Assembly: GCA_039804165.1 (NCBI GenBank)
Contig: JBDRZZ010000015.1
Location: 1 to 45,886, forward strand
Origin: a candidate division WOR-3 bacterium
GTDB taxonomy: Bacteria; Hydrothermota; UBA3072
Direction: 5' to 3'
DNA length: 45,886 nucleotides
Both the position numbers and the translations under genes were made by a program. This document shows, one piece after another, positions 36,599-41,605 of this stretch (positions are counted from its first letter, which is position 1; each line of letters begins with the position of its first letter). A model generated the notes under the pieces. The model did not search any database. It was not told the DNA's origin and saw only the letters and a program-made list of their open reading frames with translations.

Positions 36599-37213
36599 CT
36601 AATCTTCCAATTTAAACGTCACAGGAAAAGAAAGCCAAACATCTACAGGATTATCTCTCTGCATCGCAGGTGTAAATCTTAGCAAATAAGCTCTTTTCTT
36701 TGCTTCCTCATCAATAGCAGGATAAAGAGGTTTTTTTACAATAACTTGCCTAACCTTTCCCTCTTTATCTACCCATAACTCAAGATAAAGAGTTCCTTCT
36801 ATTCCCAATCTTTTAGCCACTTCCGGATAAAAATCCATCACTTTTGGATTTAAAACCTTTGGCGGAACCTCATAGTAAACAAACTTAGGGGGAGGGACTT
36901 CAACATCAGCTTCTTTTTTCTCAAAACCCGAAAAATCAGTCTTTTCAATTGTTTCCGCCTCAACCTCCTTATCACTTTTAGCTGCTACAGGCATCTTAGG
37001 TTTTGGAGGAGGTGGTGGTTTCACAATATTCTGTAACTGAGGGGGAAGTTTGTCGACCTCTATTGGCTTTGGTGTAGGAGGAGTGTAAGGTTTTCTCTCT
37101 ATTTCTGGAATAAAAATAAACCCAAGAATTAATAGGACAAGAGCTGTAAGAAAACCTATCCTCATATTTAGGGGATACCTTCTCTTTATATCAATTGTTT
37201 TTTCTCTATCCAT
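36599..37213 (-). CDS. tonB: TonB-family energy transducer
   Basis: One membrane helix (about 20-36) follows a short basic cytosolic tail. A Pro/Lys-rich periplasmic stretch (KPPPPPKPKMP, about 65-75) and a C-terminal TonB domain (YPEVAKRLGIEGTLYLELWVDKEG, then RYLLRFTPA-type motif AYLLRFTPA) complete it. TonB passes energy from the ExbB/ExbD motor to outer-membrane partners. It is encoded directly behind exbB and two exbD genes. Confidence 0.92.
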   Translation of the reverse strand: MDREKTIDIKRRYPLNMRIGFLTALVLLILGFIFIPEIERKPYTPPTPKPIEVDKLPPQLQNIVKPPPPPKPKMPVAAKSDKEVEAETIEKTDFSGFEKKEADVEVPPPKFVYYEVPPKVLNPKVMDFYPEVAKRLGIEGTLYLELWVDKEGKVRQVIVKKPLYPAIDEEAKKRAYLLRFTPAMQRDNPVDVWLSFPVTFKLED

Positions 37214-37216
37214 TAC

Positions 37217-37621
37217 TTACCCCCTTTTCTTTCTTCCTGCCATATGAATTCTCAAAACGGAAGCATCTATAAATTCATTGAGGACATCTTCCACAAGTTT
37301 GTAAGGAGTCGCCTCATCACATTTTAGAGAAACAATTATATTTGGGTTGAGTTGCCTTTTCCTACTCATTATCTCAGAAACCCTCTCTTTAGTAAGAAGC
37401 GCATCATCAATGGCAATAAGCCCATTTTTTGCAATCCATACGTGTGTCAAATCCTTTGTAGGCATTTTCTCTGCTGCCTCTACTTGAGGAATAATAATCT
37501 TTAGCCCTGTCTCAGCTCTAAAAGTGGTCGTAACCATAAAAAATATTATTAAAAGAAAAGCTATATCAGCCATTGAAGCTGTCGGGATTCTTGCCTCGAA
37601 TCTTTCTCTAAAGAACTTCAT
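37217..37621 (-). CDS. exbD: ExbD/TolR-family motor protein (second copy)
   Basis: The 134-residue protein has one N-terminal helix, SMADIAFLLIIFFMVTT, with the proton-carrying Asp, and a periplasmic TolR-like domain. The first ~65 nt of the helix-coding region are nearly identical to the other exbD gene while the periplasmic domains differ. ExbB/ExbD type motors commonly use an ExbD dimer, so the two copies may form a heterodimer. Confidence 0.92.
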   Translation of the reverse strand: MKFFRERFEARIPTASMADIAFLLIIFFMVTTTFRAETGLKIIIPQVEAAEKMPTKDLTHVWIAKNGLIAIDDALLTKERVSEIMSRKRQLNPNIIVSLKCDEATPYKLVEDVLNEFIDASVLRIHMAGRKKRG

Positions 37622-37630
37622 AGCTCCACC

Positions 37631-38035
37631 TCATTCTTCAGAAGAAGGTGCTAAAGAATATCTTTCAGCATTCGCCAATCTAAGTTTATCAAGAGCATTC
37701 ACCATATATTGATATTGAGCAAGAGGATGTGTCTTTATAGAAAAAATTGCGTTTGGATTCTCTGAAAGAATTCTTTTTACCTCATCAACTAAGCGATCCT
37801 GAGTTATAGGTTCACCATTAAGCCTCATTTCTCCTTTTTCTTCTACATAAATTCGCTGAATATTCTCAGGCTTTACCTTGACTTCTTGCTCTTTTTCTGG
37901 AAGCATAATTTGTAAACCAACTTCATTGGCAAATACTGTTGTAACCATAAAAAATATAAGCAAAAGAAAAGCTATATCAGCCATTGAAGCTGTCGGGATT
38001 TCAGGTGTATTTGCCTTCTTCTTAAAAATTTTCAT
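37631..38035 (-). CDS. exbD: ExbD/TolR-family motor protein (first copy)
   Basis: Also 134 residues, it has the helix SMADIAFLLLIFFMVTT with the conserved Asp, then a divergent periplasmic domain ending in Ser/Glu residues. It starts directly after the stop of exbB (no gap) and is followed after 9 nt by the second exbD. The periplasmic domain of this copy has EKEQEVKVKPENIQRIYVEE, unlike its neighbour, which argues for different contacts. Confidence 0.92.
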   Translation of the reverse strand: MKIFKKKANTPEIPTASMADIAFLLLIFFMVTTVFANEVGLQIMLPEKEQEVKVKPENIQRIYVEEKGEMRLNGEPITQDRLVDEVKRILSENPNAIFSIKTHPLAQYQYMVNALDKLRLANAERYSLAPSSEE

Positions 38036-38665
38036 TTATGCCTCCAACAAGAAATCCATTAAAGAAGCAGAAGCCTCCTCCATAGAATTTGTATATGCGT
38101 TTATCTTTTGAGTAAAGAAGGCGTGAGCCATTGAAAAAGGAATAGCTAAAGATAAACCCGCTGCAGTGGTAATAAGAGCTTCTGAAATACCAGAAGCTAC
38201 AAGAGTTGCTTCTACTGTTCCAGCAAGAGCTATTGCATCAAAAGCATTAATCATTCCGGAAACAGTGCCCAAAAAACCTATCATCGGGGTAATATTTGTA
38301 AGAGCAGCAAGAATTAACATTCCTCTGTCTAGAAAAGCCAATTCTCTCGTTGCATATCTTGTGATTACTTCTTCAAGAACTTCCTTTTCTTTAGTCTTTT
38401 TAGCTAACTCTTTATATTTCTCTATTGTGGGGCCAAAAATACGTGCAGCAGGGGAAGGATTCTGTCGACAAAACTCAACCGCGGTTGACGCTCCATCTTT
38501 CTTAAAAATATCAATAAGCTCTTCTACAAGATCTTGAGGATCAACTCTAAGCCGTGCAAACGTTATCAACCTTTCAATAATATAAGCAACGCCAATAATT
38601 GCACAGAAAAGTAGTGGCCACATCGCCCATCTACCTCTTACAAAGAAATCAATAGCCGCTTGCAT
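38036..38665 (-). CDS. exbB: ExbB/TolQ-family proton channel
   Basis: The 209-residue protein has three membrane helices (about 15-35, 115-140, 160-180) and the family motif NITPMIGFLGTVSGMINAF. With ExbD it forms an inner-membrane proton-driven motor. An AAAGGAGG site precedes the ATG. The gene follows two small membrane-protein genes by 25 nt, so motor and upstream PATAN/roadblock genes appear to be one transcript. Confidence 0.95.
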   Translation of the reverse strand: MQAAIDFFVRGRWAMWPLLFCAIIGVAYIIERLITFARLRVDPQDLVEELIDIFKKDGASTAVEFCRQNPSPAARIFGPTIEKYKELAKKTKEKEVLEEVITRYATRELAFLDRGMLILAALTNITPMIGFLGTVSGMINAFDAIALAGTVEATLVASGISEALITTAAGLSLAIPFSMAHAFFTQKINAYTNSMEEASASLMDFLLEA

Positions 38666-38690
38666 ATAACCTCCTTTTTCAAGCTTTAAT

Positions 38691-39041
38691 TTATTTTGAA
38701 ATCCACCTGTAATATACCGTGATTCCTAAAAGTGTCAAGAGGGCAGAGCTAAGCGTAGAAAAAGATTCCACAGAATTGGCTCTTAACATTCCCTTAATTA
38801 AAGGGAAAAGGTCTGCCGGATCTGCAACTGTAAGAGCCCCCCCAAAATACCATATCCTATAAAAATGTATAACAGCTGATATTACCAAGAAAATAGAGCC
38901 TATCACAGGCAAAATCCATATTCCCTTTTTCTCAATTAAAGGAAGAAGCCTCTTTATAATCAAACCGTAAACAAAAAGAGAAATTGTAAAGATGAAGATG
39001 CTAAAGGCAAATAAAATCTCAAAAGGAATATCAACTCTCAT
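38691..39041 (-). CDS. Unknown small membrane protein, three helices
   Basis: I do not recognise this 116-residue protein. Three hydrophobic helices are visible (about 6-29, 41-63, 97-113) with a short loop PADLFPLIKGMLRANSVES between the last two. No catalytic motif is evident. Its ATG overlaps the stop of the preceding membrane-protein gene (ATGA), which suggests the two are made together and may form a complex. The overall size and helix order resemble its neighbour, so they may be distant paralogs. Confidence 0.75.
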   Translation of the reverse strand: MRVDIPFEILFAFSIFIFTISLFVYGLIIKRLLPLIEKKGIWILPVIGSIFLVISAVIHFYRIWYFGGALTVADPADLFPLIKGMLRANSVESFSTLSSALLTLLGITVYYRWISK

Positions 39042-39409
39042 CTAAAACCTCCCCTTTTTGGGCTAATAACCCTTCTAAAACGAAAAGCTCCAAGCAAAGA
39101 CAAAATCCCAGAAAAACAAAAAAGTAAATACGCAATTCTCCCAAAATTAATAGGCATCTTCAAATTACCCTGTAAAACCGAAATTAGTTGTAACACAGCA
39201 TAAATCAAAATACCAGAAGGAGCAATGATAATAAATTGCCATTCTGTTTTTTTCCTTAAAACAATCTCATATCTTTTGGCAATTATTCCAAAAAGAACAA
39301 AAGTAATCCATAGAAAAAGAGCAGCAATAATCATTATCCAACTACTAATTGAAGCAATTCTTGTAATCTCTTCTGGTAAAGAAGAAAAATTTAACAAAAA
39401 AAGATTCAT
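39038..39409 (-). CDS. Unknown small membrane protein, three helices
   Basis: A 123-residue protein of unknown function with three helices (about 20-44, 58-80, 90-110) and a basic C-terminus (RRVISPKRGGFR). It overlaps both neighbours by 4 nt (ATGA). It lies between the roadblock-like genes and exbB, so a membrane adaptor linking the cytosolic module to the motor is a reasonable but untested idea. Confidence 0.75.
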   Translation of the reverse strand: MNLFLLNFSSLPEEITRIASISSWIMIIAALFLWITFVLFGIIAKRYEIVLRKKTEWQFIIIAPSGILIYAVLQLISVLQGNLKMPINFGRIAYLLFCFSGILSLLGAFRFRRVISPKRGGFR

Positions 39410-40080
39410 TCTACCTCCTCTATTTTTTTCAAAATTTCACCCTTCATTTTTTTCGCTTTAGATGGACCTATTATTAAAGAAGCCGCATCTCTAAGTGCCT
39501 GAGCAATACCTAAAACCTCATCTCTTGTTGGTTTATTCCTATCTATTCCGCTATCTTCAATCACATTAGAAACAATGTCTAAAGAAAAATCCCCAAGGTA
39601 ATTTCTTGCTATCTCTTCTATATATTCTATCACTTTTGGGCTAAAAACTTCTTTCTTAACAATAACTTCTTCTAACTTTTTAGGTTCCAGAACTGGCTTT
39701 ACTATCTCTTCCTCCTCCTTTATCTCTTCAATTTTGACTTTTTCTCTCTTTATCTCAACCTTTGGTTCTCTTGCTTCCGCCTCTCCTATAGACTGATAAA
39801 TATATTTCATAATACTATCAATATTTTTATCTCTCTCTCCAACAATCCCTATGAAATTATTTTTGAAATATATTATAACTACTTTCTTCTCTTTACCTTT
39901 AACAATTAACTGCCTAAAAGGCAACCCCCCAATGGCATCAAAAGTTTGAGTTAAAACAAGATTAATTCTATCTATAACCTCTTTTCCATCTTTAAGATTC
40001 CCTACAAATTCTTTAGGTTCATTTAAACTAAAGACAGCTTCTAAATTAAAATTATCTTTCAATTCCTTCAAATTTATCAT
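39406..40080 (-). CDS. Roadblock-like protein with acidic/basic linker
   Basis: The 224-residue protein starts with a domain (1-95) whose strand pattern RQLIVKGKEKKVVIIYFKNNFIGIVGE resembles the roadblock/LC7 fold of its neighbour. A highly charged Lys/Glu linker (about 103-140) follows, then a helical C-terminal domain (about 145-224) with IGPSKAKKMKGEILKKIEE. This last motif resembles the ends of the two upstream proteins in the operon. No nucleotide-binding motif is present. Overlaps of 4 nt on both sides indicate coupled translation. Confidence 0.65.
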   Translation of the reverse strand: MINLKELKDNFNLEAVFSLNEPKEFVGNLKDGKEVIDRINLVLTQTFDAIGGLPFRQLIVKGKEKKVVIIYFKNNFIGIVGERDKNIDSIMKYIYQSIGEAEAREPKVEIKREKVKIEEIKEEEEIVKPVLEPKKLEEVIVKKEVFSPKVIEYIEEIARNYLGDFSLDIVSNVIEDSGIDRNKPTRDEVLGIAQALRDAASLIIGPSKAKKMKGEILKKIEEVE

Positions 40081-40751
40081 TCTTTCGCCTTTTTGCTAAT
40101 TTCCATTATAACCTTCTGCACAATCATTTTTGTCTGATCTTTACCAAAACTACTTAAAGCTTTTTTAACAATATAATCAAGCAACAATTTCATAAACTTA
40201 TTTATATCTTCTCTACTAAGACCATCCGCACGAACAACCTTCAGTTCCATTCCTTCCAACTTAATAGAATCCTTCAATTTTCCCTCTTTAGAAAGAGCCT
40301 CTAATCCACTTTCTATATATTCTCTCCACATCTTTGGATCAGATTCTTTAACAAATTCTTTAATTAGCATATTTAATTGCCTTGCCCTTTCCACAAAAAC
40401 TCTTTCAATATCCGAAACAGCTTCTTTTTTCAGAGACACTAACTTCTGGGAAACCTTATCCTCTATATTTTCATCCTTAACATCCTCTTCCAATATAATT
40501 CCTAAATAATTCCCATTAAAAGGCAAAATCACAATATTTTCTCTTCCTATCCCTTTAATTGAATCTATCCCTCCTGTTTCACAAGTCTCAGCTATAATTT
40601 CAGCTGCAGAACCTATAAAAGCGACTAAATCGTCTATATTCCCTGGTGTTATCCCTCCTGTCTTTAAAATCGAACCATCTTCTGAAGAAACCAAAGCAAA
40701 TCCTTTTACTTCTCTAAGTTCCATCAATTCATCCAATAAATCAGGATTCAT
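40077..40751 (-). CDS. Roadblock/LC7-domain protein
   Basis: The 224-residue protein begins with a roadblock/LC7-type domain (about 1-92): LMELREVKGFALVSSEDGSILKTGG is its diagnostic beta-hairpin, and IVILPFNGNYLGIILEED its last strand pair. Such domains in bacteria (MglB-like) dimerise and often regulate small Ras-like GTPases, though no such GTPase lies nearby. A helical C-terminal region ends in ALSSFGKDQTKMIVQKVIMEI. It overlaps the PATAN gene by 11 nt and the next gene by 4 nt. Confidence 0.78.
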   Translation of the reverse strand: MNPDLLDELMELREVKGFALVSSEDGSILKTGGITPGNIDDLVAFIGSAAEIIAETCETGGIDSIKGIGRENIVILPFNGNYLGIILEEDVKDENIEDKVSQKLVSLKKEAVSDIERVFVERARQLNMLIKEFVKESDPKMWREYIESGLEALSKEGKLKDSIKLEGMELKVVRADGLSREDINKFMKLLLDYIVKKALSSFGKDQTKMIVQKVIMEISKKAKE

Positions 40752-41571
40752 TCTCTATCTCTTTCATCCTTTTCTTTACAAGTAATTTGCCAAGTGTCTC
40801 AGTGGCTTTCTTTTCTAAAGAAGTTAGAACATCAGAAAAAAATTTCTTCGTCTTTTCAAGATCTAATGAGAATTTCTTTTCATTAACCTGCATACTCTTT
40901 ACATCTAAGGAAACACAATCTTCTATACCATACTGCTTAATTAATTCTCTAACTGCTCCAACCCAAGGCCCTTCTCCAAAAGTCTTCAAAAATAAATTAG
41001 TCTTCTTTATCCCCTCCTCTAAAACTCTTTTCCTTTCTTCTGGATCATATAATAGAGACTCCTTAAACAACCAGGATAAAGCTTTCAAGGTATCAAGTTC
41101 AGATAGAGGACTCATTTTAATAATCTCAGAAAGTTTCCTTTTCCCGTCAACTAAAATCAAAACTTTCCATTCATCTTTCTTTAAAGCAATCTTGTCTCCC
41201 TCTGGAACCTTCGAAGACTTTTCAGGAATTATTGAAAGAGGAGGTAAATCTTTTTTAAACTCTTCTATCTGCGCTTCTCTTGTTTCAATTTGATCTATCA
41301 AATCCGAAAGAGGTTGAAAAATAGTATTTACAGACGGCTTTTCATCAGGCTGAAATACAAATTTCCCTTCTTTTTTTAAACCAAGAGAAAAAAAAGCTTC
41401 TATTCCTTCTTTATTATCCATTTCTGCGTGTAAAACTTTACCATCCGAGATATAAATATTGCCTTCCCCTTTAATAATCAATCTTCCAGATTTCTTAAAT
41501 CTCGAGAAGAGATATAAAATCTCTTTCATTGAGAAATAAGATAAATCTCCTTCTATAGCTATATCCTTCAT
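40741..41571 (-). CDS. DUF4388 (PATAN) domain protein
   Basis: The 276-residue protein opens with a PATAN/DUF4388 domain (1-100): IEGDLSYFSMKEILYLFSR, SGRLIIKGEGNIYISDGKVLHAE split over about 28-50, then GKFVFQPDEKPS. A winged-helix-like region (about 131-190, WKVLILVDGKRKLSEII) and a helical tail ending LGKLLVKKRMKEIE follow. DUF4388 domains are common in regulatory proteins linked to roadblock/GTPase polarity systems and two-component signalling. It is the first gene of the operon and probably leaderless. Function is not established. Confidence 0.8.
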   Translation of the reverse strand: MKDIAIEGDLSYFSMKEILYLFSRFKKSGRLIIKGEGNIYISDGKVLHAEMDNKEGIEAFFSLGLKKEGKFVFQPDEKPSVNTIFQPLSDLIDQIETREAQIEEFKKDLPPLSIIPEKSSKVPEGDKIALKKDEWKVLILVDGKRKLSEIIKMSPLSELDTLKALSWLFKESLLYDPEERKRVLEEGIKKTNLFLKTFGEGPWVGAVRELIKQYGIEDCVSLDVKSMQVNEKKFSLDLEKTKKFFSDVLTSLEKKATETLGKLLVKKRMKEIENES

Positions 41572-41577
41572 ATTAGA

Positions 41578-41605
41578 ATATTACTTAAAATAAAAAGATT
41601 GTCAA
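41578..41605 (-). promoter_or_regulatory. Promoter of the PATAN operon, leaderless type
   Basis: Minus-strand TTGACA (41600-41605), 16-nt spacer, TAATAT (41578-41583) and then 6 nt to the ATG at 41571. No ribosome site fits between them, so the mRNA should begin at or next to the start codon. Confidence 0.7.

Follow-up and report, generated by a model that had tools for sequence, protein, structure and literature searches.

The usual view of Ton motors, which are proton-driven and power transport at the outer membrane, is that receptor occupancy engages them from outside the cell, and the locus described here raises the question of whether such a motor might also be governed from the cytoplasm. 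The window, by which we mean the whole 45,886-nucleotide stretch of DNA that was analysed, corresponds to contig C15 in a draft genome of 1.96 Mb from candidate division WOR-3, a little-known group of bacteria. On its minus strand, in 5′ to 3′ order, nine genes encode a DUF4388 (PATAN) protein, a roadblock protein (Rob1), a second, roadblock-like protein (RobL2), two membrane proteins (TMa and TMb), ExbB, two ExbD copies and TonB, and they are followed on the same stretch by recG and a porV-family gene (Table 1). The first five genes overlap, DUF4388/Rob1 by 11 nt and Rob1/RobL2, RobL2/TMa and TMa/TMb by 4 nt each, after which the gaps are 25 nt (TMb/ExbB), 0 nt (ExbB/ExbD), 9 nt (ExbD/ExbD), 3 nt (ExbD/TonB) and 23 nt (TonB/RecG). 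An initial annotation had read the locus as ten co-directional genes behind one promoter, with overlaps of 4-11 nt among the first five. The gene set, its position, the common direction on the minus strand and the overlaps were all confirmed in the sequence; the single promoter has no statistical support, promoter-like matches numbering 26 against 30.5 in shuffled sequence. A candidate ahead of DUF4388 (TTGACA-16-TAATAT, 41605-41578) is equalled by a match immediately before exbB (38738-38711). Within 41571-41605, the upstream candidate leaves about 7 nt between the end of its second hexamer and the DUF4388 start codon, no Shine-Dalgarno sequence precedes that codon, and the transcript would be leaderless if the candidate promoter is real. 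The tenth gene, recG, is indeed co-directional, but it lies downstream of TonB only in the close families f1, f2 and f4, and we rejected it as a component; PorV, whose linkage is patchy, was left out as well.

Table 1. Features of the nine-gene cluster in the window (all on the minus strand)
Feature	Coordinates	Length	Description	Evidence
DUF4388 (PATAN) protein	40741..41571 (-)	276 aa	C-terminal helical domain common to Rob1	Pfam DUF4388 5.8e-11
Rob1	40077..40751 (-)	224 aa	N-terminal roadblock/LC7 domain and conserved C-terminal helical domain	PDB profile, AlphaFold2, Foldseek
RobL2	39406..40080 (-)	224 aa	Probable divergent roadblock domain, charged linker, C-terminal helices	hhalign to Rob1
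TMa	39038..39409 (-)		Predicted three-helix inner-membrane protein of an unnamed family, strongly conserved basic loop 1	Hydropathy and charges
TMb	38691..39041 (-)		TMa paralogue, probably three helices, invariant His59	Alignment and hhalign
ExbB	38036..38665 (-)		ExbB/TolQ-type proton-channel subunit	MotA_ExbB 1.1e-28
ExbD copy 1	37631..38035 (-)			ExbD 8.9e-25
ExbD copy 2	37217..37621 (-)		Membrane Asp kept; sequence MADIAFLLIIFFMV	ExbD 7.1e-22
TonB	36599..37213 (-)		Membrane anchor, proline-rich spacer, TonB C-terminal domain	TonB_C 2.9e-14

The motor itself is of a familiar kind. By domain, ExbB, both ExbD copies and TonB are ordinary members of their families, and they are encoded together. 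ExbB finds TolQ/ExbB structures in the PDB (E down to 5.5e-14) and has both channel motifs, LGTVSG and GISEALITT, intact, with LGTVxG present in all 51 sequences; the membrane Asp of the window's first ExbD copy aligns with the Asp of solved ExbD and is found in 94 of 95 ExbD-like frames, and hydropathy gives TonB one N-terminal helix. The Glu of the second ExbB motif, kept in the window, is replaced by Thr in most genomes of family f11, where the motif reads, for example at L111:7648-8286, GISTALITTKWGL in place of GISEALITT. A Tol-Pal identity was rejected, the cluster having neither TolB nor Pal and the tolQ model scoring 106.7 bits against a cut-off of 221. A complete ExbB/ExbD/ExbD/TonB motor with conserved channel motifs is encoded, for which proton-driven uptake is predicted.

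The five genes ahead of it are less familiar, and we take the three soluble, adaptor-type proteins first. The DUF4388 protein passes the Pfam cut-off for its family (42.9 bits against 25); its family profile brought up only helical chance matches in the PDB. Its C-terminal 100 residues are homologous to those of Rob1 (hhalign 97.8%, E 1e-12), and a weak match of the Rob1 C-terminus to MJ1481 (E 0.24) was set aside as chance. That Rob1 is a roadblock protein, as had been proposed, is borne out by two lines that agree even though Pfam alone is sub-threshold (Robl_LC7, 0.099, short of Pfam's cut-off): in the PDB its family profile matches roadblock chains best (top E 0.0063), and nearly all of the 50 best Foldseek matches of its AlphaFold2 model (two sequences, mean pLDDT 71.5) have the roadblock fold, dynein light chains, LAMTOR subunits, archaeal roadblocks and M. 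xanthus MglB among them, with only the first match passing E 0.001. The structure models were built from the window and L031 sequences only, with thin alignments, and that of RobL2 is of low confidence (pLDDT 52.6). RobL2 matched no curated family in Pfam or NCBIfam; its N-terminal half, which aligns with the Rob1 N-terminus over 40 columns only (hhalign 76.7%), probably has the roadblock fold, and its C-terminal helices bear a conserved GPS/T motif.

Neither membrane protein reaches the cut-off of any Pfam or NCBIfam family, and the TMa profile found nothing of value in the PDB. Both had been annotated as three-helix proteins, which by hydropathy is right for TMa, while TMb has two clear helices and a weaker third. 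The two are homologous (hhalign 60-81%, with cross-matches of iterated profiles). An alignment of 20 TMa sequences has 18 invariant columns, and 7 of the 16 positions of loop 1 are invariant across the 20; the conserved loop 1 of TMa and that of TMb are predicted from positive-inside charges to be cytoplasmic.

Do these genes belong together outside this one contig? In a survey of 147 genomes of candidate division WOR-3, the DUF4388-Rob1-RobL2 triad occurs in 54 and is adjacent in every one. TMa is present in 53 of the 147, all 53 of which have RobL2, and in the sole RobL2 genome without TMa, G120, the contig breaks off at the triad. RobL2 adjoins TMa in 46 of the 54 genomes and TMb adjoins ExbB in 46 of 54, while TMa and TMb are neighbours in 50 and ExbB and ExbD in 49; where a pair is not adjacent, the contig ends there, a reading frame is at fault, a receptor pair has been inserted (G014, G019, G030) or the genes are truly dispersed. 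The association with ExbBD on which the initial annotation was built therefore extends, in the same order, to dozens of genomes, and the 46 of 54 at either junction show that the first five genes are not usually found elsewhere. The operon is real and conserved, and its shared order, seen in dozens of genomes, is far beyond chance.

Where the cluster has come apart, its pieces are still there. Three separate contigs of G009 carry, respectively, the triad, TMa with TMb, and an ExbB-D-D-TonB-RecG set; G034, G038, G050, G058 and G070 have the blocks in two places and retain all of them; genomes of f18 and f24 carry the triad and the TMa-TMb-motor part at different places, and in G118 the cluster is split between TMa and TMb. 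These cases bear directly on an explanation in which the genes hitchhike in one transcription unit without any functional link. RecG and PorV are examples of just such incidental neighbours here, and vertical inheritance alone can keep an order for a while, but the order is preserved across families at 30-40% identity and in other phyla, and co-retention of unlinked pieces after dispersal largely refutes hitchhiking, which we regard as very improbable. Pairwise-distance correlations among six of the proteins, 0.90-0.96 without a control, reflect joint vertical inheritance only and were not used as evidence of contact.

The motor also occurs alone. G012, G017 and G023 are without RobL2 and TMa and retain a cluster-type motor, which can therefore do without the module; cluster-type ExbB-D-D-TonB without the module is found in these three and in G018 and G088. 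Loss of the module tends to be as a whole. At the G017 locus (L151:2378-3504), where RobL2, TMa and TMb are gone, a DUF4388 gene and a short fragment like the start of Rob1 lie directly before exbB, an apparent remnant of deletion. The five genes are stably associated with each other and, mostly, with the Ton motor.

Other genes recur around the cluster. In f18 (L054, L056, L057, L143) the triad adjoins RuvB, and at L054 also a methyl-accepting chemotaxis protein, with GcvT one gene on; the neighbours at L056, L057 and L143 match those of L054 in size. Directly upstream of DUF4388 in several families stand four membrane genes (DUF6754 and proteins of about 207, 275 and 205 aa), which we call the DUF6754 module (loci L044, L046, L050, L052, L053, L048, L042, L107-L109, L111, L115, L118, L127 and L140; families f11, f13, f19, f35 and f36, with a duplication in f13). 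As a specific partner this module was rejected, being present in 140 of the 147 genomes regardless of TMa and absent from the window's genome and its genus mate.

Among about 243 genomes from outside WOR-3, 6 have TMa, and a follow-up placed it in 10 of 10 genomes of the phylum of G275 and 4 of 4 of that of G176; the block occurs in two small phyla besides WOR-3. In the phylum of G176, TMb and the motor are separated by a receptor gene. The mapped genomes of the phylum of G275 carry the five-gene block without neighbouring ExbBD (Rob1 is uncalled in one), and G275 itself has a single ExbB, located elsewhere in the genome. The main alternative to motor control draws on these genomes: the five genes would form an independent membrane signalling unit (PATAN-roadblock-TMa-TMb) with an output other than the motor, co-expressed with it for a shared need such as nutrient sensing. 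Besides the block without ExbBD, it would account for G210, where a DUF4388 gene, TMa and TMb stand ahead of a response regulator, for G387, where TMa-TMb adjoin solute-binding proteins, and for the chemotaxis protein beside the f18 triad. Yet TMa-TMb still adjoin the motor where the triad has moved off (G034, G038, G050, G070), and the block of G275 still adjoins a TonB receptor, and we consider such a separate unit unlikely, if well worth keeping in view. Control of the motor by the five genes is itself weakened by the block of G275's phylum, by G210, by the f18 triad context and by the motors without the module. The end of the G210 DUF4388 protein (L121:7780-8541) resembles the RobL2 C-terminus by eye, as if fused.

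In the five f13 genomes the cluster ExbB is the only MotA/ExbB protein, beside 2-4 receptors each, so it should serve all f13 TonB receptors as a general Ton energizer. Besides the cluster, the window's genome encodes two more ExbB-type sets; it also has 7 Plug domains (TonB-dependent receptors), and none of these receptors adjoins the cluster. Receptors built of CarboxypepD_reg, Plug and barrel domains do adjoin it in several families, and in G275 the five genes are followed by a T9SS-tailed (Por_Secre_tail) protein and then a receptor. Such neighbours admit another explanation, that the cluster is a machine for export or sorting at the outer membrane, with the Ton motor powering an Oar-like receptor or some process related to T9SS and the module fixing the cell pole at which this takes place. 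The adjoining receptors share the CarboxypepD_reg-Plug-barrel plan of Oar (PMC6434023), PorV-family genes recur downstream, and the T9SS-tailed protein of G275 comes after TMb. The window's own cluster has no receptor beside it, however, and with PorV linked only patchily, we think a machine of this sort improbable.

The initial annotation had also remarked that no Ras-like GTPase, the usual roadblock partner, is in the window. This is true of the window, but other contigs of the genome encode two MglA-like GTPases, for neither of which a link to Rob1 was seen. The gene for one is paired with a roadblock gene; the second stands on contig C24 (L101:1003-7607) in a row of genes for a pilus-type ATPase, biotin carboxylase, the MglA-like GTPase, a DnaA-like ATPase, a PATAN-TPR protein and CheR. 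Across the phylum, MglA is present in 52 of 53 TMa genomes against 44 of 94 without TMa (Fisher 8e-12, kinship uncorrected), a co-occurrence that tracks clades, so that the p-value overstates independence.

In the AglRQS-Glt gliding motor, polarity is under the control of MglA, a Ras-like GTPase, and the roadblock protein MglB. Like the cluster, that machine has one TolQ-type and two TolR-type subunits and TonB-C proteins (PMC3169522, PMC5349195), a subunit set common to other Ton systems and so not specific to Agl-Glt, whereas here the roadblock genes lie within the motor operon, TMa and TMb are present and the TonB is a true one. Ton^Oar of M. xanthus likewise has one ExbB, two ExbD and one TonB, and its receptor Oar is of the CarboxypepD_reg-Plug-barrel kind that neighbours the cluster in many related genomes. 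It is TonB1/ExbB1/ExbD1/ExbD2 that fix the polar localization of Oar, but they are a four-gene Ton set, and the text consulted mentions no PATAN, roadblock or TMa/TMb components (PMC6434023). A PATAN protein thought to control a motor is known in the response regulator PixE, which interacts with the type IV pilus motor PilB1, although that motor is an ATPase and the PATAN domain of PixE is fused to CheY (PMC7690835), whereas here it is fused to another helical domain and encoded beside a proton motor. Rob1 has the roadblock fold of MglB and other roadblock/LC7 proteins, but carries an extra conserved C-terminal domain and has no adjacent GTPase. The domains, membrane Asp and ExbB motifs are those of E. 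coli-type ExbBD-TonB, from which the cluster differs in its two different ExbD proteins and five extra genes.

Control of the motor by the five genes is the most economical reading of these observations. It rests on the conserved order, the co-retention after dispersal, the overlaps typical of translational coupling, the sole ExbB of f13, the neighbouring receptors, the cytoplasmic loops of TMa and TMb, the co-occurrence of MglA with TMa, and the precedents of PixE and Ton^Oar. From sequence, then, we give about an even chance that the nine genes encode a Ton energizer together with a control module of its own in the cytoplasm, and the arrangement suggests that switching or positioning of the motor comes from the cytoplasmic side. 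We infer contact between the proteins and a gating or positioning of the motor, either of which fits the evidence. In the mechanism we propose, the DUF4388 protein, Rob1 and RobL2 would assemble into a single complex by roadblock pairing and by way of C-terminal domains that are related; this complex would dock on the basic loops that a TMa-TMb pair, located beside ExbB, exposes to the cytoplasm, and a cytoplasmic signal, possibly MglA-GTP or a chemosensory output, would set where or when the TonB stroke acts on outer-membrane receptors. More tentatively, and with a little less confidence than an even chance, the cluster may represent a widespread and undescribed class of Ton motor in which ExbB is acted on, by way of TMa and TMb, by a PATAN-roadblock complex that MglA may control.

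The literature searched, few subscription papers among it, contained no paper joining DUF4388 with roadblock proteins, none joining PATAN, roadblock and TonB, and none with both 'candidate division WOR-3' and TonB. Nor did it describe the five-gene companion module with its two unnamed membrane families, or any description of cytoplasmic switching or positioning of Ton systems. The motor is of a known kind and the companion module is, as far as that literature goes, the new part. For TMa and TMb, families with no Pfam or NCBIfam entry, the cluster provides a first functional lead, and the split clusters and natural losses are a concrete test set. If true, the presence of a conserved adaptor module in the gene cluster of the motor would place a Ton system under cytoplasmic control, and one cluster would join polarity of the small-GTPase/roadblock kind with motor control by PATAN proteins and with proton-driven motors of the envelope.
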